From positions 1 through 34,526 of IMG/VR virus record IMGVR_UViG_3300025070_002472: a stretch of 34,526 nucleotides of DNA; one strand, 5' to 3'. A model generated the notes under the pieces. That model saw only the letters and a program-made list of their open reading frames with translations, had not been told where the DNA came from and did no database searches. The first letter of the stretch is position 1. Every line of letters begins with the position of its first letter. This document shows positions 1 to 26,937 of the stretch, one piece after another. The position numbers and the translations under genes were made by a program. The stretch comes from a virus.

Positions 1-453
1 AATAGTAGGCATTGTTGTGTGTCCGTCATCATCTGTGTTGTCAAACGCTTCTTGTATCTTATCTCTAAACAGAACACCTGTGAACCATTTACGATATGAT
101 GATATACTTAAGATGTCATCGTTACACACATCACATTGTGATATACGTTCACCTGCCATAAGTTTCTTACGAATGTCTTTCATATACGGTGAGTTCCAAT
201 GTTCTTCTAAACTAACAGGATTAAAATCGTCTGCTAATGTTTTAGATTCTTTTATCTCGCCATACTTCTCATCGTTAGTAGCATCAATATACTGTTTTTG
301 AAATGAGTGTTCTTCTCTACTGGCGCAACACATTCTTCTCTCACCTTGTGGAGATATGTAAGTGTGCGACCACGGAGCCATACAGAAAGTCTTGTTCTCA
401 CTTTCTTCAGCACAACTGCCGTCTCTATTCCAAATTGGTACTATTTTTTTCAT
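1..453 (-). CDS. Radical SAM protein, N-terminal part (cut by window edge)
   Basis: The reading frame is open from an ATG at 453 to the left edge, giving 151 residues; the rest lies outside the window. The start overlaps the stop of the upstream gene as ATGA, so translation is probably coupled. Visible cysteines are C24 in FCMAPW, C42/C43 in RRMCCAS, and C107/C110 in QCDVC. This is the N-terminal SPASM/twitch-like block of phage radical SAM proteins, where it precedes the CX3CX2C core. The core itself would lie beyond the edge and cannot be seen. The block is more divergent than in the three full-length relatives: 17 residues rather than 18 separate the first two cysteines, and 64 rather than 41 precede the CxxC. 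Such enzymes bind one [4Fe-4S] cluster that cleaves S-adenosylmethionine plus an auxiliary cluster. The substrate is unknown. Confidence 0.72.
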   Translation of the reverse strand, partial: MKKIVPIWNRDGSCAEESENKTFCMAPWSHTYISPQGERRMCCASREEHSFQKQYIDATNDEKYGEIKESKTLADDFNPVSLEEHWNSPYMKDIRKKLMAGERISQCDVCNDDILSISSYRKWFTGVLFRDKIQEAFDNTDDDGHTTMPTI

Positions 454-1691
454 GGCAGTAATGTGGGATATTCCTTAAAAGGTGAAATTGTTGTTATGTC
501 GCAATTCCATGCATGGTTTCTATTTCTTAAAATTTTATCTTCGATACCTAATATCTTCGTTTGTAACTCTTCGAGAGGGATTTCACTTATTCTTTTTATT
601 TCATTAAAATATGCACTCAGTCTCTCATCTATATCTATTATTGTGTCGAAAGAATAATCAAATATTTCATCATACAATTCGAATCCAAGATTTTTTAATA
701 TAGCATAATAACTTTGACAGTTAAAAAATAATGATACTTTTCCAACAAGATATGGTTTCCATGTTTTTTCAGTAAAAAACTGATATTTTTCCGGAACAGT
801 TTCAACTCCAATATCAATTAGACTATTATTTAAATAATAAGAATGGCTTATTCTATCTTGATTTAGTCCTATTTCTAAATCTTCTAATGACATATCGAGT
901 TCTTTTGTTTGCTCAAAATCAAATATTGCAGTGTTAATACCATCTGTCTTTGAAATCATATTATTCCAGTTGTCTGACAAAACAGTTCCTTCTGGGTGGC
1001 GTTTTAACCAACTCCAATGGCACTTCTCAATAATATTTGTTTCATGTAACCAAGTTAGAAGTTTTATCCTAATCAAATTTGGAACTCCGTTTAGACATAC
1101 AAAATGTTTTAAAAAATGTCCAGTTGGAATGTCTCTGTAAAATTGGCACATGTAGTAATTTGTTATTTTATTACTATCTTGTGCATATATTAGTCTTTTT
1201 CTTGTTCTTGATAGCAGTCCAAAAGGGAATCCGTAAAATTTTACATTTCCGATTGTAACAGGAATTTCGCCACAATATCTTTTAACGTTAGATTCAACAC
1301 CAAGGTCGCCATTAATAAATACACATTCAATATCTTCATTTGGAGTTGGGTCGTCATCTGGATTAATTTCTACATAAAATCCCGTTTCTATAACATTAGA
1401 AAGAACTCTCTCTTGACCCATCTTTAAATATGGTTCAGTCGTGAACGTAATATAAATCTTATCTGGTAGACCATGGTTGTTATCAAATCGGTCTTTTATA
1501 AAATCAGATAACATTGACACATTATTTCTTCCGAAGCCAAAATCTAAGGAACACATTATAATATTCTTATCAGGACGTAAATCTGCTATTAAGGCAATAT
1601 TATTATTATATGCTTCTTGATTCTCTCGTAGCAAATAATTAGCATAGTCTTCATCAGTTTTAATTTCTATAATTTTAGTTGTGTCTATCAT
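450..1691 (-). CDS. Protein of unknown function with a GT10-like motif
   Basis: This 413-residue protein has no confident family assignment. Near residues 308-330 it carries FFTEKTWKPYLVGKVSLFF, followed by an LGFEL...DEIFDYSFD stretch. The TEK...KP pattern recalls the nucleotide-sugar-binding motif of alpha-1,3-fucosyltransferases (GT10), and similar TEKTWKP segments occur, to my recollection, in uncharacterised marine phage and bacterial proteins next to glycosyltransferases. No signal peptide or membrane segment is apparent. It starts 11 bases after the stop of the radical SAM gene upstream and ends in an ATGA overlap with the partial radical SAM gene, so it belongs to the same operon. A sugar-transfer role is inferred from one short motif and its neighbours. 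An unrelated fold is possible. Confidence 0.6.
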   Translation of the reverse strand: MIDTTKIIEIKTDEDYANYLLRENQEAYNNNIALIADLRPDKNIIMCSLDFGFGRNNVSMLSDFIKDRFDNNHGLPDKIYITFTTEPYLKMGQERVLSNVIETGFYVEINPDDDPTPNEDIECVFINGDLGVESNVKRYCGEIPVTIGNVKFYGFPFGLLSRTRKRLIYAQDSNKITNYYMCQFYRDIPTGHFLKHFVCLNGVPNLIRIKLLTWLHETNIIEKCHWSWLKRHPEGTVLSDNWNNMISKTDGINTAIFDFEQTKELDMSLEDLEIGLNQDRISHSYYLNNSLIDIGVETVPEKYQFFTEKTWKPYLVGKVSLFFNCQSYYAILKNLGFELYDEIFDYSFDTIIDIDERLSAYFNEIKRISEIPLEELQTKILGIEDKILRNRNHAWNCDITTISPFKEYPTLLP

Positions 1692-1702
1692 TTTCTAGCG
1701 TA

Positions 1703-3193
1703 CTACTTCAATACATCATCAGTCTGGTCAATATAAGTTTCAGTTGTCTTCGGGTCTATCGCAGTATCAGATACCTCTAACTGTAATTCTTTACTTAATA
1801 TTTTCTCTGCTGTAGGAATTTCACTAGACAATGAATTGAACCAGTCTGCTAACGGCCCTGGAAATGTCTCTGTGAAACTTTTACCTCTACGAATATCGTA
1901 TTGTGCAAAGAATGCCTTAAAATCATTATATAGTTTTGCTTTATCTGCCGTGTTTCTATGAGGAGTCTTAATGATATCAAGATAGTCAATTAATCGTTGT
2001 ACACTAGCCATCTCACCATCGTGTAACATTTTTTGTGGGCGTTCAGACTTATACCATGCCTCTAACTTATCTTTGTAAATAGTTTTGATATCATCTGGTA
2101 ATATTGCATTACTCTGAAATGAAGGAAATCGTAGAATATTCAGCGATAGCGTTGGGGCTCGTTGTCCATATTGTTCTCGTAGGTCTAACATTTCATCTAA
2201 AAATTCAACAATGGAATCTAGGCACAAGGAGTTTATAGTCATCATCATATGCAGTTTCGTTATATTCGCTTCGTTCAATACACGATGAATATTTGACATC
2301 CATTCATCGTAATTAAGTCCGTCTCTAATATATTCTGCTTGTTTGCCTGTAGATTCCATGCTCGTATAAATTTCAAGATTAGGCACATGCCATGATTGTT
2401 CAATCAGTTTGTTCAACACCTTTGGAGTTTCAGGACACATATTTGAATTGATGGCAAATCTCATATCTTTTCCTCGACCTGGATTATTTTTAAACCAATC
2501 AAATAATTTCCAAGTACCAGGATGCATAATAGGTTCACCACCCGTTATGCGTATCTCTTCTAAACTATCTGCAAGGTCACTTTCCCACCATCTCCAAAAT
2601 GCTTTAATGTATGGATTATCTTCTGGAGCAATAGCGCCAACCCAAGGGGCTGAATTAATAAAATGTCCTACTGCGTCAGATTGAATATTCTGATATGGAC
2701 CATACGTATTGATATCTTTTGCCCAGGCAGTACTGAATGCGGGATTACAATATGAACATTTAAAATTACACGCTCTATCAAAAGATATTTCAAGTGTCTT
2801 TAGATTAACATTTTCTTCCCATGGCAAATCAACTGATTTCTGAATATCTTCATCTTTATAGATTTCAGTCTTAAACACACGGTCAGATATATTATCTTTG
2901 CCCATGTCTTCAACTTTCCAACAGTATTCACACTCTGCTGGACGTTCGCCCTCTTGCATCATCTTACGCATTTTCTTCTTATGTGGCGTATTATGAATTG
3001 CTGATGGATTGTCGTCTAATAATTCTACCGGAATAGGATGTCCTGGTGGGTGATGACAACTTGTAGTTTGTCCATGTCCTAACCAGATAGTAGCATTGTA
3101 CCACTTGGCGGCGCAATATGACTTACTAACTGGGTCAATAATTCGTTTTTTGTATTCGTGGAGTGTTTCAAACTCCCAGTATTTTCTACCCAT
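1703..3193 (-). CDS. Radical SAM protein with N-terminal auxiliary-cluster cysteines (copy 3)
   Basis: From the ATG at 3193 the protein is 496 residues. I prefer this start to an upstream in-frame TTG (3220) or ATG (3208): GAGGA lies eight bases before it, and it overlaps the upstream stop as ATGGGTAG. C27, C46, C88 and C91 form the N-terminal four-cysteine block. CNFKCSYC (C142, C146, C149) is the CX3CX2C site that holds the SAM-cleaving [4Fe-4S] cluster, and GGEP near 218 is the usual SAM-contacting motif. The C-terminal part contains QYDIRRG followed by an F..TFPGPLADWF segment shared with the two upstream relatives. It is closest to the 478-residue gene just upstream and looks like a tandem duplicate of it. 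Likely a cytosolic enzyme acting on an unknown substrate, possibly a peptide or sugar. Confidence 0.88.
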   Translation of the reverse strand: MGRKYWEFETLHEYKKRIIDPVSKSYCAAKWYNATIWLGHGQTTSCHHPPGHPIPVELLDDNPSAIHNTPHKKKMRKMMQEGERPAECEYCWKVEDMGKDNISDRVFKTEIYKDEDIQKSVDLPWEENVNLKTLEISFDRACNFKCSYCNPAFSTAWAKDINTYGPYQNIQSDAVGHFINSAPWVGAIAPEDNPYIKAFWRWWESDLADSLEEIRITGGEPIMHPGTWKLFDWFKNNPGRGKDMRFAINSNMCPETPKVLNKLIEQSWHVPNLEIYTSMESTGKQAEYIRDGLNYDEWMSNIHRVLNEANITKLHMMMTINSLCLDSIVEFLDEMLDLREQYGQRAPTLSLNILRFPSFQSNAILPDDIKTIYKDKLEAWYKSERPQKMLHDGEMASVQRLIDYLDIIKTPHRNTADKAKLYNDFKAFFAQYDIRRGKSFTETFPGPLADWFNSLSSEIPTAEKILSKELQLEVSDTAIDPKTTETYIDQTDDVLK

Positions 3194-4622
3194 GTTTGTT
3201 GTCCTCATTATATTTTTCAATAGTAGCAGGGTCTGGTCCTATTTCTGCCACTGTTGACTGTTGTATTTCAAGTGAATCAAACCACTCTACCATCATAGGG
3301 TCGAATGTTGACCTGAAATCGAATCCTCTGCGTTTGTCATATTGTGTATAGAATGTTTTAAAATCGTTATATTGTTTTTTTAGTTCTTCAGGATTGTGAT
3401 ATCGTGTCTTGCATCGTGTTAAGTGATGCAATAAGTTTCCAACATGAAGATGTTCTACATCTATTAGTAAATGTTTATTCTTTTCATACCATGTTTCTAA
3501 TTTGTCATGGTAATGAGTTAACATATACTCAGGCAAAATATCTGGACTTTGAAATGTTGGAAAGTCCAACCTATTCAATGACATTACAGGCGCACGTTCT
3601 CCGTATATCTTACGTAGTGCTAACATATCATCCATAAAGTCTGTTATTCCATCTAAACACAAAGAATTTATAGTCATCATAACATGAAATTCACGAACTT
3701 TAGGATTATCTAATAACCTAGAGATATTGCTCAACCATGTATCATACTTCATTCCATCACGAATATAATCTGCCTGTTTTCCGACTGCTTCACAACTAGT
3801 ATATATTTTAAAATTAGGAACATATTGTGTAATTTCTAATAACTTATCAAATGTTTTTTCTTTCTCTGGAACTAAGTTACTATTGATTGAAAATATCATA
3901 TCACGGCCTTTAGTGGGATTATTTTTAAACCAATCAAATAATTTCCACACTCCGGGATGCATAATAGGTTCTCCGCCCGTCACTCGTATTTCATATAGGG
4001 TATCTACTAGACCGCCTGGCTCTTCCCACCACTTCCAAAATGCTTGTATATATGGATTGTCTTTATCATCTTTTGCTACTTTTTCTGCCCATGGTGCGGT
4101 ACCAACAAAGTGTCCTCTAGTATCTGACTGAATATTCTTATATGGTCCGTTGTCATTAATATCTTTTACCCATGCAGTTGAGAAGGCAGGATTACAATAT
4201 GAACATTTAAAATTACAGGCTCTGTCAAATGATATTTCTAATGTATGTAATGCTGAGTCATTGTCCCAAGCCTGAGTTGGTATTTTTGCTATGTCTTTCT
4301 CTTCTGACATTTGCGTTTTTTGTACTCGCACTGATACTACATCCTTGCCAGAATCTTCCATTTTCCAACAAACTGCACACTCGGCCGGGCGTTCACCGTT
4401 AAGCATTAACTTACGCATTGCTTTTTTGTGCTTAGTGTTGTGAATCGCAGTATGATTATGTTTTACTTCTTCTAATGGAATATCATGCATTGGTGGCTGA
4501 TGACAACTAGTAGTCTGTCCGTGACCTAACCAGATAGTTGCATTGTGCCATTTCGCCGCACAGAACGAAGGACTAATCGGGTCAATGACTCGCTTTTTAT
4601 ATTCTTTAAATGTTTCGTCCAT
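3186..4622 (-). CDS. Radical SAM protein with N-terminal auxiliary-cluster cysteines (copy 2)
   Basis: From the ATG at 4622 the protein is 478 residues. An earlier in-frame ATG at 4652 would overlap the upstream gene by 47 bases. The chosen start has AGGAG four bases before it and overlaps by 17. The N-terminal cysteines are C21, C40, C82 and C85. The radical SAM site is CNFKCSYC (C136, C140, C143), with GGEP at 216-219. The C-terminal stretch contains QYDKRRG and STFDPMMVEWF. Long runs match the downstream copy, for example NATIWLGHGQTTSC, so the pair arose by duplication, yet they differ throughout and are not an assembly repeat. The enzyme class is clear; the substrate is not. Its ribosome site lies inside the end of the preceding gene, so it is probably translated together with it. 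Confidence 0.88.
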   Translation of the reverse strand: MDETFKEYKKRVIDPISPSFCAAKWHNATIWLGHGQTTSCHQPPMHDIPLEEVKHNHTAIHNTKHKKAMRKLMLNGERPAECAVCWKMEDSGKDVVSVRVQKTQMSEEKDIAKIPTQAWDNDSALHTLEISFDRACNFKCSYCNPAFSTAWVKDINDNGPYKNIQSDTRGHFVGTAPWAEKVAKDDKDNPYIQAFWKWWEEPGGLVDTLYEIRVTGGEPIMHPGVWKLFDWFKNNPTKGRDMIFSINSNLVPEKEKTFDKLLEITQYVPNFKIYTSCEAVGKQADYIRDGMKYDTWLSNISRLLDNPKVREFHVMMTINSLCLDGITDFMDDMLALRKIYGERAPVMSLNRLDFPTFQSPDILPEYMLTHYHDKLETWYEKNKHLLIDVEHLHVGNLLHHLTRCKTRYHNPEELKKQYNDFKTFYTQYDKRRGFDFRSTFDPMMVEWFDSLEIQQSTVAEIGPDPATIEKYNEDNKHG

Positions 4623-6180
4623 GTTGCTCCTGATATTCTTCTTTTGCTTCATTCCAGAAATCAGTCATCTCTGGAAATGTGGCTAAGAAATTTAAGTTTC
4701 TACGTTTATCATACTGTGTAAAATATTCATAGAAGCGAATTAAGTTGGTGCTTAATTCTTCTTCACTCATATTTAGTCCTTCTTTAGCCCATGCTAAATC
4801 TCTTTCTAATTTTAATACCTCATAATTCTTAAAGCCTGTATACTTGCGACCATATAAATCATTCTCTAAAACATTCTCTTTCATAAAATCGATGTTCTCT
4901 TGTATAGTGTCTAACATATCTTCATCTGCTAATTGTAAAGTCATCCAATCTGGATATCTTAGATATGGAGTATCAAACCAAATTCGTTGTCTTTTCTTTC
5001 GAACAAATTTTGGATGTTTAAATCCTTTTCTATCTGGTGGTTGAATAACTGTATCTTCTTGGTTTTCGTAACCGAATTCTTCACGCAGGTCTAATATCAT
5101 TTGTAAGAATCCACGTAGATTAGGAATACTTAACAAGTTAAATGTATTGATGAATGATATTTCAGTACCAGCAGTTTCACTTAGAACTCGTCTACAGTTT
5201 TGATACATTTTCTCAAAATCAAGACCGTCACGCATGTATTCTGCTTGTTTGCCTACTCCATCTACACTTACGTATAAACTAAAATGTTTACATGCTGGTG
5301 CAACGTACCAGTTATTACCACTGTCTGGATTAAACTTTTCTGTGTCTTCCCATACACGAACTTCTTCTATTGCTTTTAACTTGTCTAAGAACTTCTCAAA
5401 CAATGCATCTTGTGGTGGGCACATATTAGAAGTTATACTTAAATCTAGCGTTGCGTTTGGATTCTCGTTTACATAATCTAACACTTTGAATGTATTGTTG
5501 TCCATCAGTGGCTCACCGCCAGTCATACGAAAAACTTTCAAATCTTGGTACACATTAGGAAACCATTTCCAAAATGCTTCTACATATGGATTATCTTTAC
5601 GTGCAACTTCAAGAGGCATAAGTCCAGTTTTACGTAGATAGTCTATGTCATTATGTCCTGTTCCGTTTGAGAAACGAAATCCACCATGTTCTTTTACATC
5701 ATCTTCCCATGCAGTAGACAAGTGGGGTGAGCAATAACTACATTTAAAGTTACATGCTTGATTAAAATTGACTTCGACATATCGTGGAGTAATGTCGTGG
5801 TCCCAAGGATTGTTTACAACTTCATCCCATGCATCTTTTACCCACCACTCACTTGAGCGATAGTGTCTATCGCTTAATCTACCACCCTCTGGTGGATTCG
5901 GAGCATCTTCTACATTCCAACAGTACTGACATCCTTCAGGACGAGTGCCCTCTTTCATTTGTTTTCGTTCTTGTAATTTGAACTGTGTATTATGTAATGC
6001 GTTTGGATTCGCTTTTAGTTCATCTAATGGAATCGCATGTGTTGGCGGATGATAACAACTATGCGTTCTTCCTTGCGGCAAGTGTAGACTTACTTGAAGC
6101 CATTTCGCCATGCACATAGACGGCGACAATGCATTTAAATTGTCCCGAGTGACAACTGCATCATCGTCATAATTTGACAT
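4606..6180 (-). CDS. Radical SAM protein with N-terminal auxiliary-cluster cysteines (copy 1)
   Basis: This 524-residue protein begins at an ATG that shares one base with the preceding stop (TAATG), with GGGA a few bases upstream. C23, C42, C84 and C87 have exactly the spacing seen in the two downstream relatives. CNFKCSYC (C143, C147, C150) is the radical SAM site and GGEP lies at 221-224. It is longer than its relatives because the middle carries extra sequence, including a basic segment around DRKGFKHPKFVRKKRQR, before the shared QYDKRRNLNF / ATFPEMTDFW ending. It is the most divergent of the three and may act on a different substrate or partner. It sits directly behind a glycosyltransferase-like gene in one transcription unit. 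Confidence 0.88.
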   Translation of the reverse strand: MSNYDDDAVVTRDNLNALSPSMCMAKWLQVSLHLPQGRTHSCYHPPTHAIPLDELKANPNALHNTQFKLQERKQMKEGTRPEGCQYCWNVEDAPNPPEGGRLSDRHYRSSEWWVKDAWDEVVNNPWDHDITPRYVEVNFNQACNFKCSYCSPHLSTAWEDDVKEHGGFRFSNGTGHNDIDYLRKTGLMPLEVARKDNPYVEAFWKWFPNVYQDLKVFRMTGGEPLMDNNTFKVLDYVNENPNATLDLSITSNMCPPQDALFEKFLDKLKAIEEVRVWEDTEKFNPDSGNNWYVAPACKHFSLYVSVDGVGKQAEYMRDGLDFEKMYQNCRRVLSETAGTEISFINTFNLLSIPNLRGFLQMILDLREEFGYENQEDTVIQPPDRKGFKHPKFVRKKRQRIWFDTPYLRYPDWMTLQLADEDMLDTIQENIDFMKENVLENDLYGRKYTGFKNYEVLKLERDLAWAKEGLNMSEEELSTNLIRFYEYFTQYDKRRNLNFLATFPEMTDFWNEAKEEYQEQHGRNI

Positions 6181-7163
6181 TATCTATCCCAACCAGTTTG
6201 CTTTTCTGTTGCAGTTGGATTATTAACTCTAGGTGGATTTGTGTAAACTCTCTTAAAGAACCTACCTAATTCTGGTGTTGGGTCTGCGATTTCCATTCCC
6301 ATCTTTTCAGTAAGAATGTCACCGATACGTAAACACTCATCATATAGTTTATCGTAGTCCCATTCTACTCCAGTTTTAGAACATTTCTCTTCGCCACCAG
6401 CAACAGTAGGAAGAATTTCTTCTTCAAAATAAGATTTGAACCAATCAAACGATGAAATGTTTTCCAATAAGTAATCTTCTACAAAATTAATATCATAGCA
6501 TCCTAGTCTTGCGCCGAAGCAAGCCCAAATGCCGTTCTCTACATCAGCACCAACATTACACCATGTTACTAATCTTTCGTAGTTTTTTGGCCATATTCTC
6601 TTTTTAAAATCTTCAATAGGCACAGTCTTGCCTTCATCTAAAGACATCTTAACACCTTCACGATATCCTGCACGAAATGCCTGAAATGGTGAGCCTGCGT
6701 TGTATACTTCTGAATGAATGTCATTCATTTGAATATAATTCAAATCCCAACAGAAGTCTACTTTCTTTGTTTCATCTTCTGCATTCTCGTGTGTTTTCAT
6801 TTCTAACACCAAGTCTACTGGCCAACATTTGATACCACCATTACCGTATACTAATCCATTAATCATGTTCTTAGCACTCCAACTAATAATAGAGTTTGCT
6901 AAGTCTGTGTTTTCTGTGAAACTTATCTCTAAATCAAAAAACTTTTCATCAACGATGTTGTCACCATCGATAGTAATAAATCTGTCAGTTTCACTTTGTC
7001 TTGCACATTCTTTGTGTGCATTGTCAAATCCTTTTACTCCATCTACTCTTTTAGCAAATGGAAACTTCATCATCAGGTTCGCCCAATGTTCTTCTTTTGC
7101 TGGTTCATCATAACTGATATAGAATACATCTAAATCGCCTATGACAACTTTTGATTCTTTCAT
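6180..7163 (-). CDS. Glycosyltransferase-like protein (GT-A type, DGD motif)
   Basis: From the ATG at 7163 the protein is 327 residues. The longer frame opening at 7175 would need a GTG start. The 7163 ATG overlaps the upstream stop as ATGA and has GGAGA six bases before it. The N-terminal part contains VFYISYDEP, a KRVDGVKG turn, and then RFITIDGDNIVD (DGD at 66-68). This is the layout of GT-A glycosyltransferases, where an acidic DxD holds the metal and the nucleotide sugar. The family is one I recall from T4-like marine phages with no defined substrate. No membrane segment is seen. It lies between an orphan gene and the radical SAM genes, which suggests one pathway. The GT-A assignment rests on the motif and on layout. 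Confidence 0.72.
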   Translation of the reverse strand: MKESKVVIGDLDVFYISYDEPAKEEHWANLMMKFPFAKRVDGVKGFDNAHKECARQSETDRFITIDGDNIVDEKFFDLEISFTENTDLANSIISWSAKNMINGLVYGNGGIKCWPVDLVLEMKTHENAEDETKKVDFCWDLNYIQMNDIHSEVYNAGSPFQAFRAGYREGVKMSLDEGKTVPIEDFKKRIWPKNYERLVTWCNVGADVENGIWACFGARLGCYDINFVEDYLLENISSFDWFKSYFEEEILPTVAGGEEKCSKTGVEWDYDKLYDECLRIGDILTEKMGMEIADPTPELGRFFKRVYTNPPRVNNPTATEKQTGWDR

Positions 7164-7732
7164 ACTTTTCTCCACGAATACTTGTCAAAATACTTCTGTG
7201 TATAGACACTTATACTGTATTTATTAAATGCTAACTTAACATGTTTTCCAGTGGATAATAGTTCAGAAAATGGTACTTCTACTGTTTTTATTAGAAATTC
7301 TGGTCTATCTTTGTGTGTGATAAAGAACACATGGTCTGTTTTGCCAGCAACACTAACCAATTGATTTGCATCAATTTCAATACTTTCTTTCAATTTGTCG
7401 TTTGCTTCGAATATCAATTCGTCATCATTGAGTGAAAGTAGTATATCAGCATCTTCTGTTGTTAATATCTTATGTAGTTGATTGTCTTTGTTTCTTCGTT
7501 TAATGTCAACTTTTGATTTTATAATCTCATATATGAGTGGATTCTTTGTTCTTTTGACTATGTAATCTGAAAATTTGTAACTGCCATTAAGAAAAGGCTC
7601 AATCTCTTTAATCTCAAACCATGCAAATAAATCTTTCGTGTCTTGGATTTGATTCGTTATCTGTGTAATCTTATTGAACCCATCGAAATAAACAGCACGA
7701 CATGTTTTTGTTTTTTCTATAACACTTATCAT
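7160..7732 (-). CDS. Hypothetical protein, 190 aa
   Basis: I do not recognise this protein. It is 190 residues, soluble-looking, mixed in charge, with a single cysteine (C11) and no signal peptide or membrane helix. It starts with ATG in an ATGA overlap with the glycosyltransferase gene upstream, has GAGGA nine bases before the start, and ends in another ATGA overlap. It is therefore firmly inside the operon and probably produced in step with the enzymes on both sides. A helper or binding partner for the adjacent glycosyltransferases is one possibility, but nothing in the sequence shows it. Confidence 0.72.
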   Translation of the reverse strand: MISVIEKTKTCRAVYFDGFNKITQITNQIQDTKDLFAWFEIKEIEPFLNGSYKFSDYIVKRTKNPLIYEIIKSKVDIKRRNKDNQLHKILTTEDADILLSLNDDELIFEANDKLKESIEIDANQLVSVAGKTDHVFFITHKDRPEFLIKTVEVPFSELLSTGKHVKLAFNKYSISVYTQKYFDKYSWRKV

Positions 7733-8586
7733 AGTACTGCATCCTCGAGTTGTTTAATCTTATTCTCGTCCATCCAATTCTTCTCTACATAATGTACAGG
7801 CAATGTTTGAGTGAAATTACCAATCTTTACTTGTAAATCATCTCCCAACTCACTTGTTATACTTTTAGTCCAGTTACTCTCTATCATAGTTACTGGTACA
7901 TTCTGTACCATACTTTTCATATGAACAAAAGTAGGAACATCTTTAATATCGTAATCACATGTTTCTGCTTCAATATCTAATAGTTGAATTGCTAATGCGT
8001 ATGCCACGTCGGCACTCATCCAATTCTGTCCAACACCAGAAAGAAACTTATCAAAGTATACATTCCAATGAGTCATAATTAACTCAACCATTCTAAAGAA
8101 TTCAAAAGTTAATTCTGATTTATTGAAGTACGTGAAGTTGCTATACACATTTGGTAGATTTAATTGAGTGAACTTCTTTCGATAGTAGTCACTTGTTACA
8201 TCTTCATTGCGAAATGTTTTAACATTCGTGCAACACCAAACATCTTTCTTAACAAGATACTCCCACCAATAGTCTACACTCTCAGTGAATATCATATCAC
8301 TATCAAGTATGATAGTTTCATCATAAGGAGTCATATGTGGATATTTCCACTTATTGTGTATCTTCCACTTGTCTCCTTTAGCATCATCATTCCAAGGAAT
8401 ATCAACTATAGCATCAAATACTTTCTTATGTTTATCAGTTATTAGTTTCTTTGTTTCTTCATCTACACATACACATAGATTGCTATTCTCTTGTGTTGCT
8501 TTTAAACTGAGAGCGAGAGCATATGACATTTCTAAGTAATCAATGTCTTCACTATTCTGGGCAATAGTTATATATCCTTTGCTCAT
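7729..8586 (-). CDS. Glycosyltransferase-like protein (GT-A type, DSD motif), copy 2
   Basis: This 285-residue protein opens with MSKGYITIAQNSEDIDYLEM, almost the same opening as the upstream neighbour. ETIILDSDMIF places a DSD motif at 95-97, in the position expected for the metal and nucleotide-sugar site of a GT-A enzyme. The later SADVAYALAIQ and VPTFVHMKSM segments are typical, as I recall, of a glycosyltransferase family found repeatedly in T4-like marine phages. The start overlaps the previous stop as ATGA, with GGAG upstream. Acceptor and donor sugars are unknown. It most likely works in the host cytoplasm on a virion or surface component. Confidence 0.78.
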   Translation of the reverse strand: MSKGYITIAQNSEDIDYLEMSYALALSLKATQENSNLCVCVDEETKKLITDKHKKVFDAIVDIPWNDDAKGDKWKIHNKWKYPHMTPYDETIILDSDMIFTESVDYWWEYLVKKDVWCCTNVKTFRNEDVTSDYYRKKFTQLNLPNVYSNFTYFNKSELTFEFFRMVELIMTHWNVYFDKFLSGVGQNWMSADVAYALAIQLLDIEAETCDYDIKDVPTFVHMKSMVQNVPVTMIESNWTKSITSELGDDLQVKIGNFTQTLPVHYVEKNWMDENKIKQLEDAVL

Positions 8587-9452
8587 ACTTTCTCTCCGTT
8601 TGTCAATAGGTCATCAATACATCTTGCTATTGCTTTCTTATTCATAATATGCACGTCTATGTTTTTAAACCTTGATAGTATATGGTTTGTAATTCTTTCA
8701 GCATCAGCACAATACATAATAATATCATTATGTGAGTTGACTCTGTAAATATCATCAAGGTCAAAACTATTATTCAGATAATCAAATGGCAATGATGGCA
8801 CATCAAACGCAACACTACCGTTCAATATATGTAGTGCCATAGAAAATGCAAAATCATTTCTATATAGATTGCCACTACAATTATATAGGTAATAATAATA
8901 CTTGTAATTATATTTTATATGACTTATAAGAGTGAATAGATTTTCGGCAAAATCAGATTTCTTAAAATAAAAAACTGTTGCCCAATACATTGGAATACTA
9001 AAGTTATCCAGATATTCTATGTTCCCTTTATGACGTCCCGAAACATCTCTGTATTTACAGTTAATCATCACATCGTTTTCACTATCCCATACTTGGTCTA
9101 GCACATCATTCATTATGAAATAATCACTATCTATCACAAGTGTTTCATCGTAAGGAGACAACTCATATACCTCACTTCTGCCCATGTTCTTAAATGATGC
9201 ATACTCAGTTATATGTGTGGTATCTTTAAACAATCGTATGTTTTCTGGTTGAAACTCATCACTAACAATTACTTTATCAAAGTACTCGTTAATTAGTGTT
9301 TCGTTCGATTTTAAAGTCTCGGTATTAGTTATTAGACATATCTCGTCAAACAATGAAAGATTCTTTCTGGCATAACCAGCACAAGCACAAGCCTGTTTAG
9401 CATAGTCAACGTACTCATTGTTCTGAGCAAATATTATAATACCTTTACTCAT
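8583..9452 (-). CDS. Glycosyltransferase-like protein (GT-A type, DSD motif), copy 1
   Basis: This 289-residue paralogue of the next gene has the opening MSKGIIIFAQNNEYVDYAK, then ETLVIDSDYFI with DSD at 108-110. The region around NDFAFSMALHIL lines up with SADVAYALAIQ in the paralogue. It lacks much of the paralogue's C-terminal sequence similarity, so the acceptor may differ. It starts one base after the stop of the 127-residue gene and overlaps the next gene as ATGA. The cysteine pair in QACACAG and the aromatic run YKYYYYLYN are unusual but I assign them no role. Donor sugar unknown. Confidence 0.76.
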   Translation of the reverse strand: MSKGIIIFAQNNEYVDYAKQACACAGYARKNLSLFDEICLITNTETLKSNETLINEYFDKVIVSDEFQPENIRLFKDTTHITEYASFKNMGRSEVYELSPYDETLVIDSDYFIMNDVLDQVWDSENDVMINCKYRDVSGRHKGNIEYLDNFSIPMYWATVFYFKKSDFAENLFTLISHIKYNYKYYYYLYNCSGNLYRNDFAFSMALHILNGSVAFDVPSLPFDYLNNSFDLDDIYRVNSHNDIIMYCADAERITNHILSRFKNIDVHIMNKKAIARCIDDLLTNGEKV

Positions 9453-9453
9453 A

Positions 9454-9837
9454 TTAAATTTCTAATACTTTTTCTATTTTACGGGAACTTCTTAATTTTT
9501 GATATTCGTTATAATAGTCATTCACTACTTCGAAGTATAAACTCGATGTTTCGTCAAGGAATTTTTCAGTGTCTTCAATACGAACAGGTATATCGTTCTT
9601 ATCAAGTAGAGTTATCTCTGTTTTACCACTTGAAACAACGAAGTTCATAAAAGATATAAGTGATTGGTCAACTATGAATGAGCCACCAGCCGTGCTATAA
9701 CTTAGCAAGTTCTGTGTTTTGACTTTTAGATTGTTTTTGTTTAGATTGAAAGTCTTCATTGTATTAGAAAAGTCTAGTGCTTTTTCTAATCTCTCTAAGT
9801 CTTTCTCTGATGATACACCTTTAATGCTCTCGGCCAT
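9454..9837 (-). CDS. Hypothetical protein, 127 aa, first gene of accessory operon
   Basis: This small protein has no cysteine, no signal peptide and no membrane helix. It appears helical at both ends, with a central segment containing STAGGSFIVDQSLISF and a charged C-terminal helix (YYNEYQKLRSSRKI). I have a faint memory of similar conserved small proteins in T4-like cyanophages, but cannot attach a function. The ATG is preceded by AGGAG at eight bases. It is the first gene behind the promoter at 9863-9891 and is followed after one base by the first glycosyltransferase. It could belong to the virion set rather than to the glycan pathway. Confidence 0.7.
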   Translation of the reverse strand: MAESIKGVSSEKDLERLEKALDFSNTMKTFNLNKNNLKVKTQNLLSYSTAGGSFIVDQSLISFMNFVVSSGKTEITLLDKNDIPVRIEDTEKFLDETSSLYFEVVNDYYNEYQKLRSSRKIEKVLEI

Positions 9838-9851: not shown

Positions 9852-9865
9852 TATTAGTACTAATA
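9852..9865. repeat. 14-base perfect palindrome at the operon promoter
   Basis: TATTAGTACTAATA is its own reverse complement. It overlaps the downstream end of the -10 box and covers the expected transcription start of the accessory operon. A repressor or other dimeric regulator could bind here. The core AGTACT recurs at a similar place in the clpP promoter. Confidence 0.55.
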
Positions 9866-9891
9866 ATACAGTAAAATCGACCAAAAGTCAA
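9863..9891 (-). promoter_or_regulatory. Sigma70-type promoter of the accessory operon
   Basis: Minus strand: TTGACT (-35, 9891-9886), a spacer of exactly 17 bases, then TATTAT (-10, 9868-9863). Each box is one base from consensus. It lies in the 57-base gap between a fibre-type gene and the 127-aa gene. This is the host-polymerase type used for early or middle genes, unlike the late-type sites in front of the structural genes. Read-through from the structural genes remains possible, since no convincing terminator separates them. Confidence 0.65.
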
Positions 9892-9894
9892 CAC

Positions 9895-10863
9895 TTAAAG
9901 TTGAGAAATATGGGAATAAGTTGGGGATGAGAGCGTTACGCCATTTGGTGAATCAACTGGTCTAAGTTCATCTAATGTAACTGTTAATGTCCCTGCTACA
10001 TAGTCTGTTCCTGTCCAGTTGCCAGAATATGGAGGAGTAGTCCAAGTGCCATTGTCAGAGACATGAGCATCATCAAATGATATTTTAATATCTATTGCAT
10101 TTGAACCTGACAGTTTTGCATATATGTTTATTTGGTTTCCAGCATAATCACCTGTTCCGCCTTTTGTGTAAACAAGTTGATATGTGCCAGTTAACATATT
10201 AAATCCATAGCCTGGAGTGCCTAGACTTGCTGAACTTTCTGTAGAAGAATGAGACAATTTAATCGTTTGAATCGCGGCTAACATTGTTTCCCAGTCAACA
10301 CTTTGGGCATGTGCCGCATCAACGCCAGTCAATGTTGCATCAAATCTAAGTTCTCCACCAGAATTAAAGAAGTGTCTGCGATTATCTTCGTCTGTAAAGG
10401 TAACTTTTGCTTCATAAAATACTTGATTTGCACTAGTCCAAATAGGAGTACCGGGACTACCTGCTGGGTCTACGTATGCTTTTGATGAAGATATTTGATT
10501 TGGAGTTGCAGTCATGTATGCTACATCACTGTTTAGTTTGTTTCCTACTATGTTTGCTATATCTGTAGTTATAGTGGGAAGAATTGAATCTAGTTGATGT
10601 GAGGATGGCCAACTAGCATGACTTGTGCTAGTTGGCGAGTTTAGTACTGTACCTTGATGTCTGCCAGCATAGAGCATTGAGGTCAAAAGTTCATCCCACA
10701 ATGATGTTGTTACTTCTTCTAATGCTTTAGTAACAACGAGATGACTTTGACCATATCCCGAATCTGATGCGCCGATACCGACTATATCATTGATATCGTC
10801 TGCAAATGAGTTAAAATCTGCGACATGTAATTTCCATCTATTTAGATAATAACTCTGTGGCAT
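9895..10863 (-). CDS. Putative tail-fibre or virion surface protein (paralogue B)
   Basis: This 322-residue protein is rich in Ser, Thr, Gly and Asn, with many short beta-prone runs. GYGQSH lies near the N-terminus, HFFNSGGELRF in the middle, and DDAHV followed by a WTGTDYVAGTLTVT segment near the end. The upstream 305-residue protein has the same landmarks in the same order (GYNQSH, AWFAAGGELRV, ADAHV, WTGADNVPGTSTVT), so they are paralogues. The F..GGE(L/I)R pattern is one I associate with fibre or other surface proteins of T4-like marine phages. Position after gp7 matches the T4 slots of baseplate outer and fibre genes (8-12), but I cannot assign a T4 homologue. The ribosome site is weak. 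Confidence 0.68.
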   Translation of the reverse strand: MPQSYYLNRWKLHVADFNSFADDINDIVGIGASDSGYGQSHLVVTKALEEVTTSLWDELLTSMLYAGRHQGTVLNSPTSTSHASWPSSHQLDSILPTITTDIANIVGNKLNSDVAYMTATPNQISSSKAYVDPAGSPGTPIWTSANQVFYEAKVTFTDEDNRRHFFNSGGELRFDATLTGVDAAHAQSVDWETMLAAIQTIKLSHSSTESSASLGTPGYGFNMLTGTYQLVYTKGGTGDYAGNQINIYAKLSGSNAIDIKISFDDAHVSDNGTWTTPPYSGNWTGTDYVAGTLTVTLDELRPVDSPNGVTLSSPTYSHISQL

Positions 10864-10885
10864 TTACATCGTCCCACAACTTAGT

Positions 10886-11803
10886 TTACAGAGAATCAGT
10901 AACAGTAGACGTTGGATTCGAAGCCATAACTGAGCCAGACGCATTTGTTAATTTTTTCGATGCAATAGTAACTGTCGATGTTCCCGGTACATTGTCAGCA
11001 CCAGTCCATGACCATGCACCACCATAACCAGAACCACTGCCTGAACGGGCAACGTGAGCATCTGCTAATTCTATTTTAACTAATATGTCTGCGCCACTGT
11101 TTTCTGTTTTGGCTGAAACTTGAATATAGTTCGCACTATAATCTGAATCATCTGCTATTTCTTTCTTATGTACAACATAAGAAGTTGTGATATCACTGTG
11201 TTTATATCTTGAACGTGTATCAACTGAACTTGAATCTTCTGGTCTTACTGAGTAAGTAAAAGTACCTAGTTCACCAGTAAGTTGTTCCCAAGAAGTGCCC
11301 TGTTGGTTGCCACTTGAGTCACTATGTGATGCTGTAACTCTAAGTTCGCCACCCGCGGCGAACCAAGCATTCAAGTTAGCCACTGAACCAAATTCGAATT
11401 TAACAATTTGAGTTCTAGTTCCGTTCCAGTTTGATGCTGTTTCTTGTGTTTCATTCTGTACACTTGTGTCCCAGTCTGTGTAAGACCAAGGAGAATCAAA
11501 ACGTGTTTCGATGTCAGTGATGAATTGTGCCGCTACAGAACCATAATGGTCCCAGTCGATTGTTGTTCCTGCATCAACTGCCGTAAATGGGTTTGTAATA
11601 TTATAATAATTTGCTATCTTTGCCGCGGCAGCGAATAGTGAATCATGGTATGCATCGTCAACCGTGTCACCAGTTGTAGGATTTGCCGCGATAGTATGTG
11701 ACTGGTTATATCCACCATGTACACCCGTGCCGTTTAAGATAGTATTCATAGCACTTCGTAGACTTGATAAGTCTGAGTTTGATATTTGTGAGCCTGAAGC
11801 CAT
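10886..11803 (-). CDS. Putative tail-fibre or virion surface protein (paralogue A)
   Basis: This 305-residue protein is low in charge and rich in Ser, Thr and Gly. GYNQSH lies near residue 40, AWFAAGGELRV in the middle, and ADAHV plus a glycine-rich segment (GSGSGYGGAW) towards the end. It is clearly related to the 322-residue protein downstream. The ATG at 11803 has AGGAG seven bases before it. It lies 17 bases behind the 219-residue structural gene and 22 bases before its paralogue, so the three probably form one late transcript. A role in the distal tail or in receptor contact is inferred from composition and position. Confidence 0.68.
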   Translation of the reverse strand: MASGSQISNSDLSSLRSAMNTILNGTGVHGGYNQSHTIAANPTTGDTVDDAYHDSLFAAAAKIANYYNITNPFTAVDAGTTIDWDHYGSVAAQFITDIETRFDSPWSYTDWDTSVQNETQETASNWNGTRTQIVKFEFGSVANLNAWFAAGGELRVTASHSDSSGNQQGTSWEQLTGELGTFTYSVRPEDSSSVDTRSRYKHSDITTSYVVHKKEIADDSDYSANYIQVSAKTENSGADILVKIELADAHVARSGSGSGYGGAWSWTGADNVPGTSTVTIASKKLTNASGSVMASNPTSTVTDSL

Positions 11804-12525: not shown

Positions 12526-12533
12526 TATTTATA
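12526..12533 (-). promoter_or_regulatory. T4-type late promoter (TATAAATA)
   Basis: Minus strand TATAAATA is a perfect match to the late promoter read by the T4 gp55/gp33/gp45 system. It sits in the 88-base gap between gp7 and the 219-residue structural gene, about 46 bases before its start. No -35 element is required for this promoter class. The match is short and the region AT-rich; its position in front of structural genes supports it. Confidence 0.6.
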
Positions 12534-12568: not shown

Positions 12569-15500
12569 TTACACTAAGTCTTGTAAAACCAACTGTAATG
12601 GAGTCTCAAGCACATATACTAAGTCGTTATTAGCAAATGAATGCCCTAGACCCGTATACAATACTCGGTCACTAATAGTAAGTGATGTACTTGCTTTCTT
12701 ATCATACATCATAAATTCTACGTTAGAAGTGCCTGCTTTCTGCACTGCTATTAATTTTTTATTATTTTTAGAGGCAGTATCAAACAACGATGCGTTATTT
12801 ACTACCAAAGTTGTGCCATTAAATGATGAGATTGTACCCGAAGATTTAACTCCGATATTGTAACCTCTACCATACATATCATACACATAAAATTCTGTTT
12901 TGTCAACTGTCTCTGAACCAATTCCACCAGTGATATCACCACTGTATGTCTGTAGTCTGACTATTGAACTCTCTAATGCTTTTGAGTTTACTAAGCCGGT
13001 GTCAAATCCGCCCTCTTCTGATGTTGGTGTGTATCTGTTTAGTAAGAACTGTCCCTGCTCATATTCTCCATCAGCAATGTCATTGAATGAATTAGTTTTT
13101 GCAGTACCAGTTCCGCTCCAACCTGCCGTACCTGTTCCTGTGCCTACGCCTGTTGCTGTAAATGTAGTACCAACATTACTATCACTTGCACCAATTAAAG
13201 TAAAGTCTGTCGTTCCTGGTGCTGATATATAATATGAATTTCCAACTATAAATGAACCAGCGTTAATTATTACGACACCATTATTTGTTGCTGTAAATGT
13301 AGTACCAACATTACTATCACTTGCACCAATTAAAGTAAAGTCTGTCGTTCCTGTTGTTACGATTGTATATTCTTTACCAGTTATAAATGAACCAGCATCT
13401 GTGACTGTTGTTGGAGTGGAAAGTGTTCCATATTTGCCAGCATCTAACGTAGTGTCTAAGTATCTACTGTTATTACCAAAGTCTAAACTAAGAGCCATTT
13501 TCTCATCAATTGTAGTAGTTGCTGTTATTGAATCAGTTGTAGTGTTTATTCTTTTGATTTCTCTTATCTTCGCATGATATGGCTTTGCTTCTCTAACATA
13601 CTCTACCACATCTTCTTCACTATCTCTTTGATAAACGGCATATTGTTTCATCTCTCGGTTATGTAAATCTAAATCAAAATAACTTGTTTTGAATAACCAA
13701 GAAGGATATGTTTTTTCTGTGTAAAGATATTTAATCATAGAAAAGAATATGTCATTAATAAATGAAGTATTTGGATAATCTCTGATTAAATTCATCAACT
13801 CGTGTACTTGAATTCCTATTGCATTACTATAATAAATATCATAACCTGTTTCTGGTAATGCTATCGAATCGAAAGATACATTCAACGTACTCTTAGTTCT
13901 GTGAACTAATTGCAGTTGTCCTTCATGCTCAAAGTAGTATTCATCGTGTGTTGGTAATTTTAATTTAAATGACTTTATACCATTCTCGTATTGTTCAATC
14001 ATATCAAACTCTCTAGTAGTCGATAGATATGAGAACGAATTAATCGTTTTGTAACTGTCATCTATATACCAATTGCCTAGTTTGAAAATAATATCATCAG
14101 TATCTATGTATTGAGTATACTTAGAATATACAGTCTGTAACATTTTGTTACTCATCATTGTGTTTATTACTGAAGCAAAGTTATTGCGAGTTTTTGTAGT
14201 ATTAGTAAACCAATTGTTCTTCGTTGCTTCTACTGAGTAAACTCTTAATACATCTCCCACTACCATTGTATGTTGCTTACTAATCTTTAAATTATTACCG
14301 TCAATACTTAGATAACTTGCTTTTACTGTTCCTGAGTTTGTAGTAACAACAATATTATCAGTTGATAGTCCACTCATAAAGTTGTTTCCGTGCCTGTCTT
14401 TTGGCGTTACAACTGCAAAGTTAACGTCAACTAATTCAGATGTCACTAGTTTAGTAACATAAGATTTCAATATAGTGACACCAGAGATAGAATTTGTTAA
14501 GTCATCTAAGAATCTGTTAGGTATAACAGACTTTGAGTCATCTAACAACATTTCCCAATCTGAGTGTTCCTTAACAAGACCTTTTTCTTGTTGATATTCT
14601 AATGATGCTGTAACAGTCTGGTTATCATATGTCTTCGCATTATTACTAATAACCACACTTGATGTGGAAACTGGCAAGAAACTGTTTTTCGGTCCACCAG
14701 AATCAATTAGCATTTTTAGTTCTGACGTGTCATCGTCTTCTGTCCAATAGAAATAATCAGTAACAAGTTTGCCAGCAATGTCATCGTAGTATTCTTTAGT
14801 ATTATACGTTGATGTAGTTGTTGGTAATGTTCTAGATTTTGTCCATTTCCTTACAATTACAGTTGAACTTGGAACTATTGCACCCCAATACTTTCTCACG
14901 TAATCAATGTTTAAGTTTCCGTTGGCATCACCATAATCATTATAACGATAGAAGCGTGCCAAGTCTGTGTCCCACCACATTTCGCCCAGTCTTTCATCTA
15001 ACCAAATATCATTACTTGTAGTCGTATCATATTTTGCTGGGTCTGTCCACATAACATAATCTAATTTAGACATGATAGTGCCAGGTAGTTTTAAATTAAG
15101 TGGGTCATATACTTGATGAATTGTAGATTGTTCTCCATCTTGAATTATTAATCTCTTTGTCAAATCTGTATCTATAACTTTTGTCTGTCTAGCATGGGCT
15201 GTGAATCCACCAACTGGGTCATAGTTTAAAACTGCCCAACCAGATGAATCATATTCATCTATCCACAACTTACTTGTACTGTTTAGTCCTAGACTAGTAT
15301 TGAATTCTGTAAGTGTAGCGCCGTTGACACCGATTGTGTGTCTTACTGATTTCCAAATCATTGCTTTGAAATTGGCACTTGATGTGACATTAGAATATAT
15401 CAACGATAGTCCTATTCTAGTCAACATTGCAGTGGAAGTTCCAGAGAATGACATCTGCACAGTATCGTTAGTGAATATCATTCTGCCATCACTTGATACA

Positions 15501-18500
15501 CCCACCGTAAGTTCAGATGCGGCAGAGATTTGACTTGCAAACTCTAGTGCTGTTGGACTTGATGATACTGTATTACTATATGTGCCTGCTGTGATGCCTA
15601 TATCGGCAAGAGGGTCACCAGAAATATTACTCGTGACTATACTCTTTTCTGTACTTGTTATTTTCACTTGTCTATCAGTCTTGACTGCGGAAACAGTTGC
15701 ACCCGAAAATACTTGAGTATTTAAGTCAGATACTATTGTGTCTGTGGCATCAATTGCAACTGTAGTAGTTGCATATCCCAGTCTACCCATAGCACCCGAT
15801 GTTACTTCAACTATATCTAAATTGTGATTTGTACTTGTAATTTTAATTGTGCCTGTAACAACTTCAGCAGTGACTCCTAAAATAGATAGTGCATTTATTT
15901 GTTGAACAACACTTGCTTGTGTTGGATTAGAATTAGAAAGATAAGTTCCTGCTGTTATTCCCAATTCAGATAATGCTGTTCCAGAAATAATCATTTGACT
16001 TCCTGAACTTGCTATAGTCATACGATTGTTTAAATCAATAGTGGCAGTAATATTAGTTATTGTGTCTAATTCGTCTGCTAATTGGTCTAGTTTTGAATTT
16101 GTATATGAGTTAGTAGTTGAAAGTCCTAAATCAGTCAATACACCGCCAGTCATAGTTAGTTGTGGAACTGATGTTGTCAAAACCAATTGATTTGATGTTT
16201 GTGATGCTATAACTTCAGTTGTTCCTGAGTTAATCGCAATTATAATTGCGGCTAAATCATCTCCATTTGTTAACGTAATTGTATCACCATTAATTGTTAG
16301 GGGCTTTGTTGATGTCATCACTGGTGATGTAACTGTACCTGTGACTAATAAATCCTGAACTGTCTTTGTAGTACCATCAATAACAACAGTGTTACCTGTC
16401 GTTAATGTCGAACTTCTTGTTGCTGTTGTGGTCTGTGATATACTATCAGTTGAACTATAATCAACAGTCAATGATGTGCCATCTATTGTTATTTGGTCAC
16501 CGTAAGTTGAACTAAATGCACCTGTTGTTTTTGCAACAGTTCCAGAGAATGTGACTGTTGTGTTTGTTCCATTTTCAACTAGACCAGAATCGTTATAAAC
16601 AACAAATCTTGCTTGTTCACCTTCAGATACAACTGGGTTTGCAACTGTTCCTAGTATTGTTATTCCAGTACTAGTAGTTCCCGACGGTGCATAAGTGAAC
16701 GTTGTGCCGTCAATTGAAATCGAATCGCCACTAGAAAATACTGGATTACTTACTGAACCTATTGCTTCTACACCAGAATCTTCATTCGTTGGCACGAATA
16801 CACTGTTAGTAGTTGTTGAATCTATCTCAACAATTAGAGGTTCGAAATCTTCTTCAAACACTATATACTCGTGTATGGTAGTTCCGTTTACTGTTTTCGT
16901 TCCGTTAGCGGATAGAAGATAATATCCACCTATTGTTGGACTTATTTCAGCGGCTGAAATTTTTAAATAAATTGGCTTATTAGTAAATTCTTCAGCAATC
17001 GCATTTGTAGTTCCAATATATAATTGGTTGTCTGATGTTTCTCCTACATAACTTATTTCTGCTACTTCACTTAGTCGTACAACATCCCAATCTCTATCCT
17101 CATCTGCTTGTACCCAAGATATATCTCCCTCATACAATGTTTTGTCTGTTAGATTAACTAGTGATTCGTGTGTTGGCGTGATATAGTTTACATCTGCTTC
17201 GTCTACATATCCTGTTGTTTTTAGTGCTATATTCTTTTTACCAGATACTTCTAAAAGTTGTTTAGTTGGGTCAGTATATTCTATTAGATATGGGTCTTTA
17301 ATCATATCAGATACGGTAATATCTTTTGCCATTGTAAATTTATTAGACTCGTGGCCGTAGTCGCTTAGTTTAACTGCCCAGACATCAGCATGTGTTATAT
17401 TCTCAAAGTTATTATTATTGTTAACAATTTTGTTAATACTAGAATTAGTTCCTTTATGAGATAAAAATCCTTTATAAAATTCTAATTGCGATTCTCTTTC
17501 AACACCATGATTTGTTAGATATGTTCTTGTTGTATATCCATAATGATTTGATTTTAATTTATTAATAATTGAAAGGCTTTGGTCAACAAGAGTATCTCTA
17601 TAATAGCGTGTTTCTTCAATCATTGTATCGAAGTTCGGTATCAATTGGTCATCTTTGACGATGTAACCATCTACTGCCATAGTTCCGTCCCAGCCGATAG
17701 TTCTATTACAGTCTACTTGCATTCTAAGATTTCTATTATGATTATGAGGGTCGTATATCACGTCTCCATAACTATCAGTTCGGTCAACAACAAATGCGTG
17801 TTCGATATCTCTGATATCCATTTTCATTCCATAGATAGGAACAGTGCTTTTAAATATTAATTTAGAACCATCTGTGCGAAACTCAAGTTCAGAATTTGGT
17901 ATAAGTCTGCCTGCTGAATCGATTACACGATAATAATTTTTAAATGTTTCAGTAGTTACACTTGCAACACCATAGGTTGAATCAAAACTACCACCCGTTA
18001 ATAGCGGAGTAAGAGTAATAAAGTCGCCTATTTCGTGTACTTCTGATTGCCATTCTAAGAATTTATATAACAGATTTTCCCAATCTATTACGTCACCAAA
18101 TTCACTTGTGTCTGTGAATTCCCATCCTACTAATTTAAGATAATGTTCATAACCCATTATCAAATGAGCAACATCATCTATTGATTCTAAAATGTCACCG
18201 TAGTTATAATTCTTTACTGTGTCATTTACTAATTCGTTATATCCAAGTGCTTGAACTTTATTAACTCTAGGCCATTCTGTTACTGGCTTCCAATCTTTAA
18301 TGTTATCATCAAATATTGAAGTAGATGTATGATTTGTAAGACAAACATACGGAGTATCGTTCCACAATATATATGAATCCATTCTGTAGTATTCACCAGG
18401 TTGCCACTGTTGTAGTGTAAGTTTGTCACCTGATGTTGAGAATGCTTTTTCTCCACTCGCTTTGTCCCATCCCATCGCATAAAATGTAGGATTTATTTCG

Positions 18501-26346: not shown

Positions 26347-26937
26347 ATGCCAAATCTAGTACCAATGGTCGTTGACCAATCAACAAATGGAGAGCGTAGT
26401 TACGATATTTTCTCTCGTTTATTAAAAGAAAGAGTTATATTTCTAACTAGCGAAGTGAATGACTATCAGGCAGACTTGATTTGTGCCCAGTTATTATTCT
26501 TAGAAGCAGAAAATCAAGACAAAGATATACATTTTTACATCAATTCGCCGGGTGGTGCAGTGACTTCTGGCATGGCAATTTACGACACAATGCAGTTTAT
26601 TAAGTGTCCAGTAGCAACTACTGTGATGGGACAAGCATGTTCAATGGGTTCATTACTTGCTCAGGCGGGTGCTAAAGGAAAACGACACGTACTACCAAAC
26701 AGTCGCACTATGATTCATCAACCAAGTGGTGGTGCTGGTGGTCAAGCAACAGATATGAAGATTCAAGTTGATGAGATTATGAAAATGAAAGAGAGATTGA
26801 CTGGAATTTATGTAACTCATAATACCGCTGGTAAGACATTTGATGAATTGACTGCGGCTATGGAACGTGATAACTACTTGGATGCAGAAGAAACAGTAGC
26901 ATTTGGTCTAGCAGATAAAGTTATAGCAAATCGTTAA
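26347..26937 (+). CDS. clpP: ATP-dependent Clp protease proteolytic subunit
   Basis: This 196-residue protein has near the standard bacterial ClpP length without a long propeptide. The catalytic triad is complete: Ser99 in [10 protein letters not shown], His124 in MIHQPSGG, and Asp175 in [10 protein letters not shown]. The [15 protein letters not shown] oxyanion and substrate-binding loop is intact. ClpP forms a barrel that needs a host unfoldase (ClpX, ClpA or ClpC) to degrade proteins; none is encoded here. Phage copies could change host protein turnover or take part in virion maturation. It is the only plus-strand gene, with its own sigma70-type promoter. Its stop codon shares bases with the stop of the opposing lysozyme-like gene (TTAA), so no terminator separates them. 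Confidence 0.95.

Follow-up and report, generated by a model that had tools for sequence, protein, structure and literature searches.

A conserved locus of marine jumbo phages joining glycosyltransferase-like genes to paralogous N-terminal-twitch radical SAM enzymes

We examined IMG/VR virus record IMGVR_UViG_3300025070_002472 from position 1 to 34,526, the 34,526-nucleotide (nt) stretch hereafter called the window. Positions 1-9837 are occupied by ten back-to-back open reading frames (ORFs) on the minus strand, of which P10 comes first (from 9837) and P1 last, cut at base 1. The ten genes bring glycosyltransferase-like proteins together with four radical S-adenosylmethionine (SAM) enzymes of one subfamily, and they constitute the conserved 5' part of a larger phage locus. 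As to its role, we judge the chances to be about even that the locus is expressed early and serves the biosynthesis and tailoring of a glycan that remodels the host surface.

Concerning the layout, only two joints in the run have an intergenic gap, 1 nt between P10 and P9 and 11 nt between P3 and P2. The remaining joints overlap, by 4, 4, 16, 1, 47, 35 and 4 nt in coding order from P9/P8 to P2/P1 when the ORFs are called mechanically. Because the relatives favour overlaps of 4 nt and 8 nt at P5/P4 and P4/P3, the true starts of P4 and P3 probably lie a few codons downstream of the called ones. An original prediction, made from the letters alone, had proposed a ten-gene operon joined by overlaps or gaps of 11 nt or fewer. 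The ORF coordinates confirmed this arrangement, and the gene order was found to recur in dozens of marine viral contigs. This recurrence, together with strong scores against the family model NF033640 (below) and ratios of nonsynonymous to synonymous substitution rates (Ka/Ks) of 0.04-0.16 for P3-P10, which indicate purifying selection, establishes that the array is real and no accident of ORF calling.

Gene order was compared among loci chosen for carrying P3 or P6, and the counts come from related phages that are not independent of one another. In the P3 set, the gene directly upstream of the operon, S1, adjoined P10 in 28/28 cases, P10 adjoined P9 in 32/32, P9 adjoined P8 in 32/32, P7 adjoined P6 in 26/26 and P6 adjoined P5 in 43/46. 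The gene directly after P5 was P3 in 40 of 57 loci and P4 in 11. The core P10-P9-P8-P7-P6-P5-P3, with P1, is thus fixed across divergent phages, coupling overlaps included; the stretch from P3 to P1 and the stretch after P1 hold variable cassettes of unrelated radical SAM genes and other genes. A comparison of neighbourhoods had been set beforehand as the test that could refute a joint pathway. The genes were not scattered singly (P6-P5 in 43/46, P5 followed by P3 or P4 in 51/57), and the proposal of a dedicated pathway gained support, with S1-P10-P9-P8 adjacent in every relative scored and deoxysugar genes downstream in a sister contig.

The radical SAM genes are P5 (4606-6180), P4 (3186-4652), P3 (1703-3220) and the edge-cut P1 (1-453). 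They were scored with NF033640 (NCBIfam N_Twi_rSAM, N-terminal twitch), whose curated cut-off is 170 bits. P3, P4 and P5 reached 325.8, 294.8 and 302.6 bits, respectively. The P1 fragment gave 101 bits, and the complete 462-residue copy in the sister contig G001 (L132:15157-16545) gave 325 bits. By sequence, all four belong to one subfamily. The predicted count of four, one of them truncated, was therefore right, but these are paralogues rather than four unrelated enzymes, and P4 is a lineage-specific duplicate of P3, to which it is 57% identical and within whose clade it is placed. P5 and P3 share 31% identity. In 93 diverse representatives, seven cysteine columns (CxxxCxxC and the N-terminal twitch) were 100% conserved and the GGE motif was invariant, as expected of catalytically intact enzymes. 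A scan of viral contigs found P3 relatives at 79 loci. In a quick FastTree phylogeny, whose long branches limit its reading, P5, P3 and P1 each formed a near-single group, and the variable radical SAM proteins interleaved with cellular ones. A viperin-like antiviral function was rejected, the best NF038283 score among the window enzymes being 22.5 bits against a cut-off of 180. We also observed B12-binding radical SAM enzymes akin to C- or P-methyltransferases inside phage arrays (L150:12661-14796, L139:5974-7848).

The transcription unit extends beyond the ten window genes. The 46-kb contig G001 is 99.6-100% identical to the window across all shared proteins, and in it P1 is followed by a fifth radical SAM gene, an orphan, a nucleoside diphosphate (NDP)-sugar epimerase/dehydratase, an unassigned protein and a DegT aminotransferase. 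The opposite strand carries a second epimerase, so that the NDP-sugar epimerase/GDP-mannose dehydratase-like gene is present twice, as well as a P2-like protein, a sugar C-methyltransferase (Methyltransf_13/14) and a cupin. The locus of G003, a relative of 342 kb, encodes UDP-glucose/GDP-mannose dehydrogenases, a carbamoyltransferase, a TylF O-methyltransferase, a mannose-phosphate isomerase and a cytidylyltransferase, and in related phages the wider locus also includes RmlD and sugar isomerases. The carbamoyltransferase was present in 10/10 larger related contigs tested. Carbamoylation of the TobZ/NodU type and radical SAM steps co-occur in aminoglycoside-type pathways, which offers a lead. 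Contigs of 198-342 kb contained 15-21 matches to the radical SAM subfamily and other contigs 5-20, with up to ten adjacent.

A promoter of the sigma70 type, TTGACT-N17-TATTAT, lies ahead of P10 at 9863-9891 on the minus strand, in support of the prediction that a single promoter precedes the operon. In the relatives, each of the 29 unique P10 upstream sequences carried TTGAC[AT] and TATTAT/TATAAT-like hexamers with a spacer of exactly 17 nt (29/29); the chance expectation by mononucleotide shuffling was 0.015, a figure to be read with the shared ancestry of these sequences in mind. No such motif was found upstream of nine other genes (S1-S3, P9-P5 and P3). The structural run is preceded by a motif of another kind, the late-type TATAAATA at 12526-12533 (minus strand) ahead of S3, and [GT]ATAAATA occurred there in 28/28 relatives. 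In G003, the late motif was seen ahead of genes for terminase, tail tube, head-tail adaptor and baseplate proteins; genes for late-sigma factor, DNA ligase, GTP cyclohydrolase and regulators had the sigma70-type motif ahead of them. Because the operon has the sigma70-type motif and the structural genes the late one, we consider that the operon is probably expressed early or in the middle of infection. Plain read-through from the late structural genes was rejected after this comparison.

The remaining proteins of the operon include two putative glycosyltransferases of a similar kind, P9 (8583-9452; 289 residues) and P8 (7729-8586; 285 residues; DSD motif). Both fall in phrog_1903 and are 25% identical to each other. 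Their joint profile matched glycogenin (E=1.6e-6), and an AlphaFold2 model of P8, the one of the two whose fold was checked, had a pLDDT of 92.9 and glycogenin for all its top Foldseek matches (E=5e-7). Neither protein matched a Pfam glycosyltransferase family, and we therefore call them GT8-like, remote relatives of GT8, rather than members of Pfam GT8. P6 (6180-7175; 331 residues) is strongly conserved, with invariant DxDN (residues 70-73) and YGNGG motifs, and its viral relatives (54 loci in the scan of viral contigs) are mostly 70-93% identical. Its AlphaFold2 model (pLDDT 86.6) matched nearly exclusively GT-A enzymes among the top Foldseek hits, weakly (E>=2e-3, TM-score <0.4), and P6 is a probable GT-A glycosyltransferase on this modest structural resemblance. 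Three GT-A-like enzymes had been predicted; the assignment thus stands for P8 and P9 as GT8-like proteins and is more weakly supported for P6. A 938-residue protein of tandem P6-like repeats was seen in the 342-kb relative (L136:15702-18518).

P2 (450-1691; 413 residues) belongs to a variable cassette and is a putative glycosyltransferase with an FTEKTWKP-type motif common to about 20 divergent phage paralogues. Its resemblance to GT10 is limited to the EKxWK/P-type motif, and no Pfam or PDB profile matched, so that the GT10 label given to it earlier was not confirmed. The two orphans of the original prediction did prove to be conserved orphans without an informative family match. For P7 (7160-7732; 190 residues), 18 homologues were aligned (32-81% identity) and searches of families and PDB gave no match; P10 (9454-9837; 127 residues), the first gene of the unit, is 32-85% identical among relatives, always lies between S1 and P9 and has no family match. 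No usable homologue of known structure was found for P7, P10 or P2. Matches of P10 to MutL (E=0.005) were disregarded, and the weak Pfam matches of P2, P7, P9 and P10, with E 0.013-0.18, fell short of the cut-off and were set aside.

The structural proteins in the window found their matches among baseplate wedge and virion proteins. For the baseplate protein, the closest relatives with a name were from jumbo phages of the RaK2/GAP32/CBB type (34-35% identity). S1 (9895-10863, minus strand; 322 residues) and S2 are paralogous (31% identity over 166 residues; together 9895-11803), and neither had a family match. Their Ka/Ks of 0.18-0.29 indicates faster evolution than that of the neighbouring enzymes, and S1 could be an acceptor or an adhesin. 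S4 (12569-21613), a virion structural protein of 3014 residues (phrog_10938), is encoded immediately before S3-S2-S1. A gene for a ClpP-type head maturation protease (26347-26937) is on the plus strand amid the minus-strand structural region. BLAST searches with P3, P6, P8, P10 and the 9.9-kb operon gave no match among 50,697 phage records, and hence no isolate with a close relative. The sole query that matched phage records was one variable radical SAM protein, which hit Vibrio phages K566 and K567 and a single-cell marine virus at 23-25% identity. Vibrio phage K566 (OZ196521; L225) has six radical SAM matches, three of them annotated as such within 161-166 kb, and may offer a tractable model.

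Cellular counterparts were sought in one genome scan with a profile of the phage radical SAM proteins. The matches were mainly from Bdellovibrionota, the best at 58-68% identity. Fourteen genomes, picked from these matches and mostly Bdellovibrionota, contained 4-33 subfamily matches each, or 7-33 within Bdellovibrionota. Chromosomal arrays occur, such as eight radical SAM genes near obgE/rpmA/rplU in a member of the Bacteriovoracaceae; a gene for an NDP-sugar pyrophosphorylase lies some 5 kb from them. Tandem twitch-type radical SAM genes on a Bacteriovoracaceae chromosome (L205:6106-18102) are flanked by ribosomal/obgE genes on one side and by an lgt-like gene on the other. P6 homologues likewise occur in Bdellovibrionota, and P6-like genes with one subfamily radical SAM gene and two other radical SAM genes form a module that recurs in several of the examined genomes and in phages. 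The end of contig JABGUH010000022 from a Bdellovibrionales metagenome-assembled genome (MAG) reads radical SAM, P6-like, radical SAM, S1, P10, P9, P8, P7, P6, radical SAM, radical SAM, which is the phage order. The block runs from L240:17061 to L241:9146, downstream of pheS-pheT, in a contig rich in housekeeping genes. Among genomes of the MAG's class, P10 was present in 1/129 and P6 in 9/129. We rejected the possibility that the Bdellovibrionales contig (L168) is a mis-binned phage contig, as it is full of bacterial housekeeping genes. These sequences suggest that Bdellovibrionota and such phages have exchanged genes, a chimeric end of the MAG being the alternative. At least some of the phages probably infect Bdellovibrionota or organisms that have a glycan in common with them.

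How might such a locus work? In the reading to which we give about even chances, genes further downstream would supply an NDP-activated branched or amino deoxysugar. Each radical SAM enzyme would carry out one 5'-deoxyadenosyl-radical step on a particular sugar or glycoconjugate, candidate steps being epimerisation, dehydration or a change in a C-C or C-X bond, and the glycosyltransferases would transfer the unusual activated sugars onto an acceptor. A common part of the product may come from the conserved core, with variation added by the fast-changing cassettes in the manner of O-antigen loci. The target would be the glycan on the surface of the infected cell, for receptor masking or superinfection exclusion; the early-type promoter makes us lean towards the host cell, or a precursor made early, as the target. 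Several points weigh against this reading. The timing is drawn from motifs, not transcripts, and one of the 17 genes with the early motif in G003 is a baseplate-hub match. The deoxysugar genes sit in the sister contig, outside the window; no gene in the locus was recognized as encoding a flippase, polymerase or ligase, and some Bdellovibrionota radical SAM arrays have no adjacent glycosyltransferase genes (L199). The sources used gave no function, substrate, product or acceptor for any member of NF033640. Twitch/SPASM enzymes act more often on peptides. The location beside structural genes would, moreover, also fit modification of the virion.

That the glycosyltransferases and radical SAM enzymes decorate S1, S2, the 3014-residue S4 or the fibres, altering adsorption or stability, is a less likely account, yet one to be taken seriously. 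The block always lies directly downstream of S4-S3-S2-S1, S1 travels with P10-P6 even in the Bdellovibrionales contig, and S1 and S2 evolve faster than the enzymes. On the other hand, the unit is driven by a separate early-type promoter and not by the late motif of S3, and the large diversity of deoxysugar genes and cassettes resembles a surface polysaccharide locus. Since the promoter class suggests early or middle expression, remodelling of the host surface fits better than late virion decoration alone. We regard it as rather unlikely that twitch-type radical SAM arrays are a general, evolvable line of radical chemistry for tailoring surface glycans, exchanged between predatory Bdellovibrionota and the jumbo phages that infect them, which would rewrite the predator's coat in the course of infection using enzymes of its own type; if so, the entire subfamily would have sugar or glycoconjugate substrates.

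It is unlikely that the enzymes are peptide maturases, of the kind found with ribosomally synthesized and post-translationally modified peptides (RiPPs) or acting on a protein, that install crosslinks, epimerisations or thioethers before glycosylation. SPASM/twitch enzymes do commonly modify peptides (PMC8326336, PMC5682303), and the closest named solved structure matched by the radical SAM sequences was the sactipeptide maturase SkfB. However, no RiPP-maturase family model reached its cut-off with the window enzymes, 15-21 paralogues amid NDP-sugar genes would be unusual for a RiPP cluster, and the window operon, whose largest gap is 11 nt, has no space between its genes for a precursor gene missing from the list, a result confined to the operon itself. 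Even less probable is the absence of any joint pathway, the variable region being a hotspot that gathers independently useful genes and duplicates. Phages do differ in the cassettes that separate P3 from P1 and in those that follow P1, and in the tree the variable radical SAM proteins are mixed with cellular ones, but the fixed core and its coupling overlaps argue otherwise. Least favoured of all is that the radical SAM genes are unrelated cargo aiding host Fe-S or central metabolism. A passage of PMC5332604 (Nishimura et al. 2017) reports 12 radical SAM genes together with A-type carrier genes; here, by contrast, the paralogues form one subfamily, hold a conserved order relative to the glycosyltransferase genes and have sugar genes as neighbours.

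N-terminal-twitch radical SAM enzymes are abundant and without assigned function in the sources used, and the locus, which keeps 5-21 intact paralogues alongside glycosyltransferase and deoxysugar genes and has a dedicated promoter of the early type, suggests a concrete class of candidate substrates. The Bdellovibrionota link hints at hosts for host-less marine jumbo phages, and at little-known phages of predatory bacteria.

It had been assumed that radical SAM and glycosyltransferase genes are known only singly in T4-like marine phages. This is contradicted by the published 12-gene virus of PMC5332604 and the pelagimyophage cassettes of PMC7029224, and radical SAM cassettes with GT8 genes in such phages are already in the literature. 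The pelagimyophage host-recognition clusters, read in PMC7029224 as modifying the host O-chain, share with our locus a hypervariable region by tail genes, GT8 and deoxysugar enzymes, as well as the radical SAM cassettes; they belong to T4-like marine phages and are defined as an island between VrlC and the neck gene gp14. T4-like TARA_ERS488813_N000010 similarly has many radical SAM genes in one marine phage genome, interpreted as serving Fe-S metabolism, and the passages of PMC5332604 on this virus make no link to glycan genes, a subfamily, a promoter or a cellular counterpart. For the marine jumbo phage cluster PGC_C, PMC9123017 reports lipopolysaccharide biosynthesis proteins in 76%, in passages that do not mention radical SAM arrays. 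With the GT8 family (glycogenin, LARGE), P8 and P9 share a profile and a DxD-type motif, and P8 the fold, as remote relatives below Pfam cut-offs. NF033640 is a subfamily model only, to which this phage lineage adds tandem arrays of up to ten, and our literature search found no earlier description of twitch-type radical SAM arrays in phages. What seems new, and sets the locus apart from the pelagimyophage clusters, is the scale reached by a single subfamily (15-21 matches in the largest contigs) in a RaK2/GAP32-related jumbo lineage, a fixed core of glycosyltransferase and radical SAM genes with its own conserved sigma70-type promoter, and counterparts in Bdellovibrionota.

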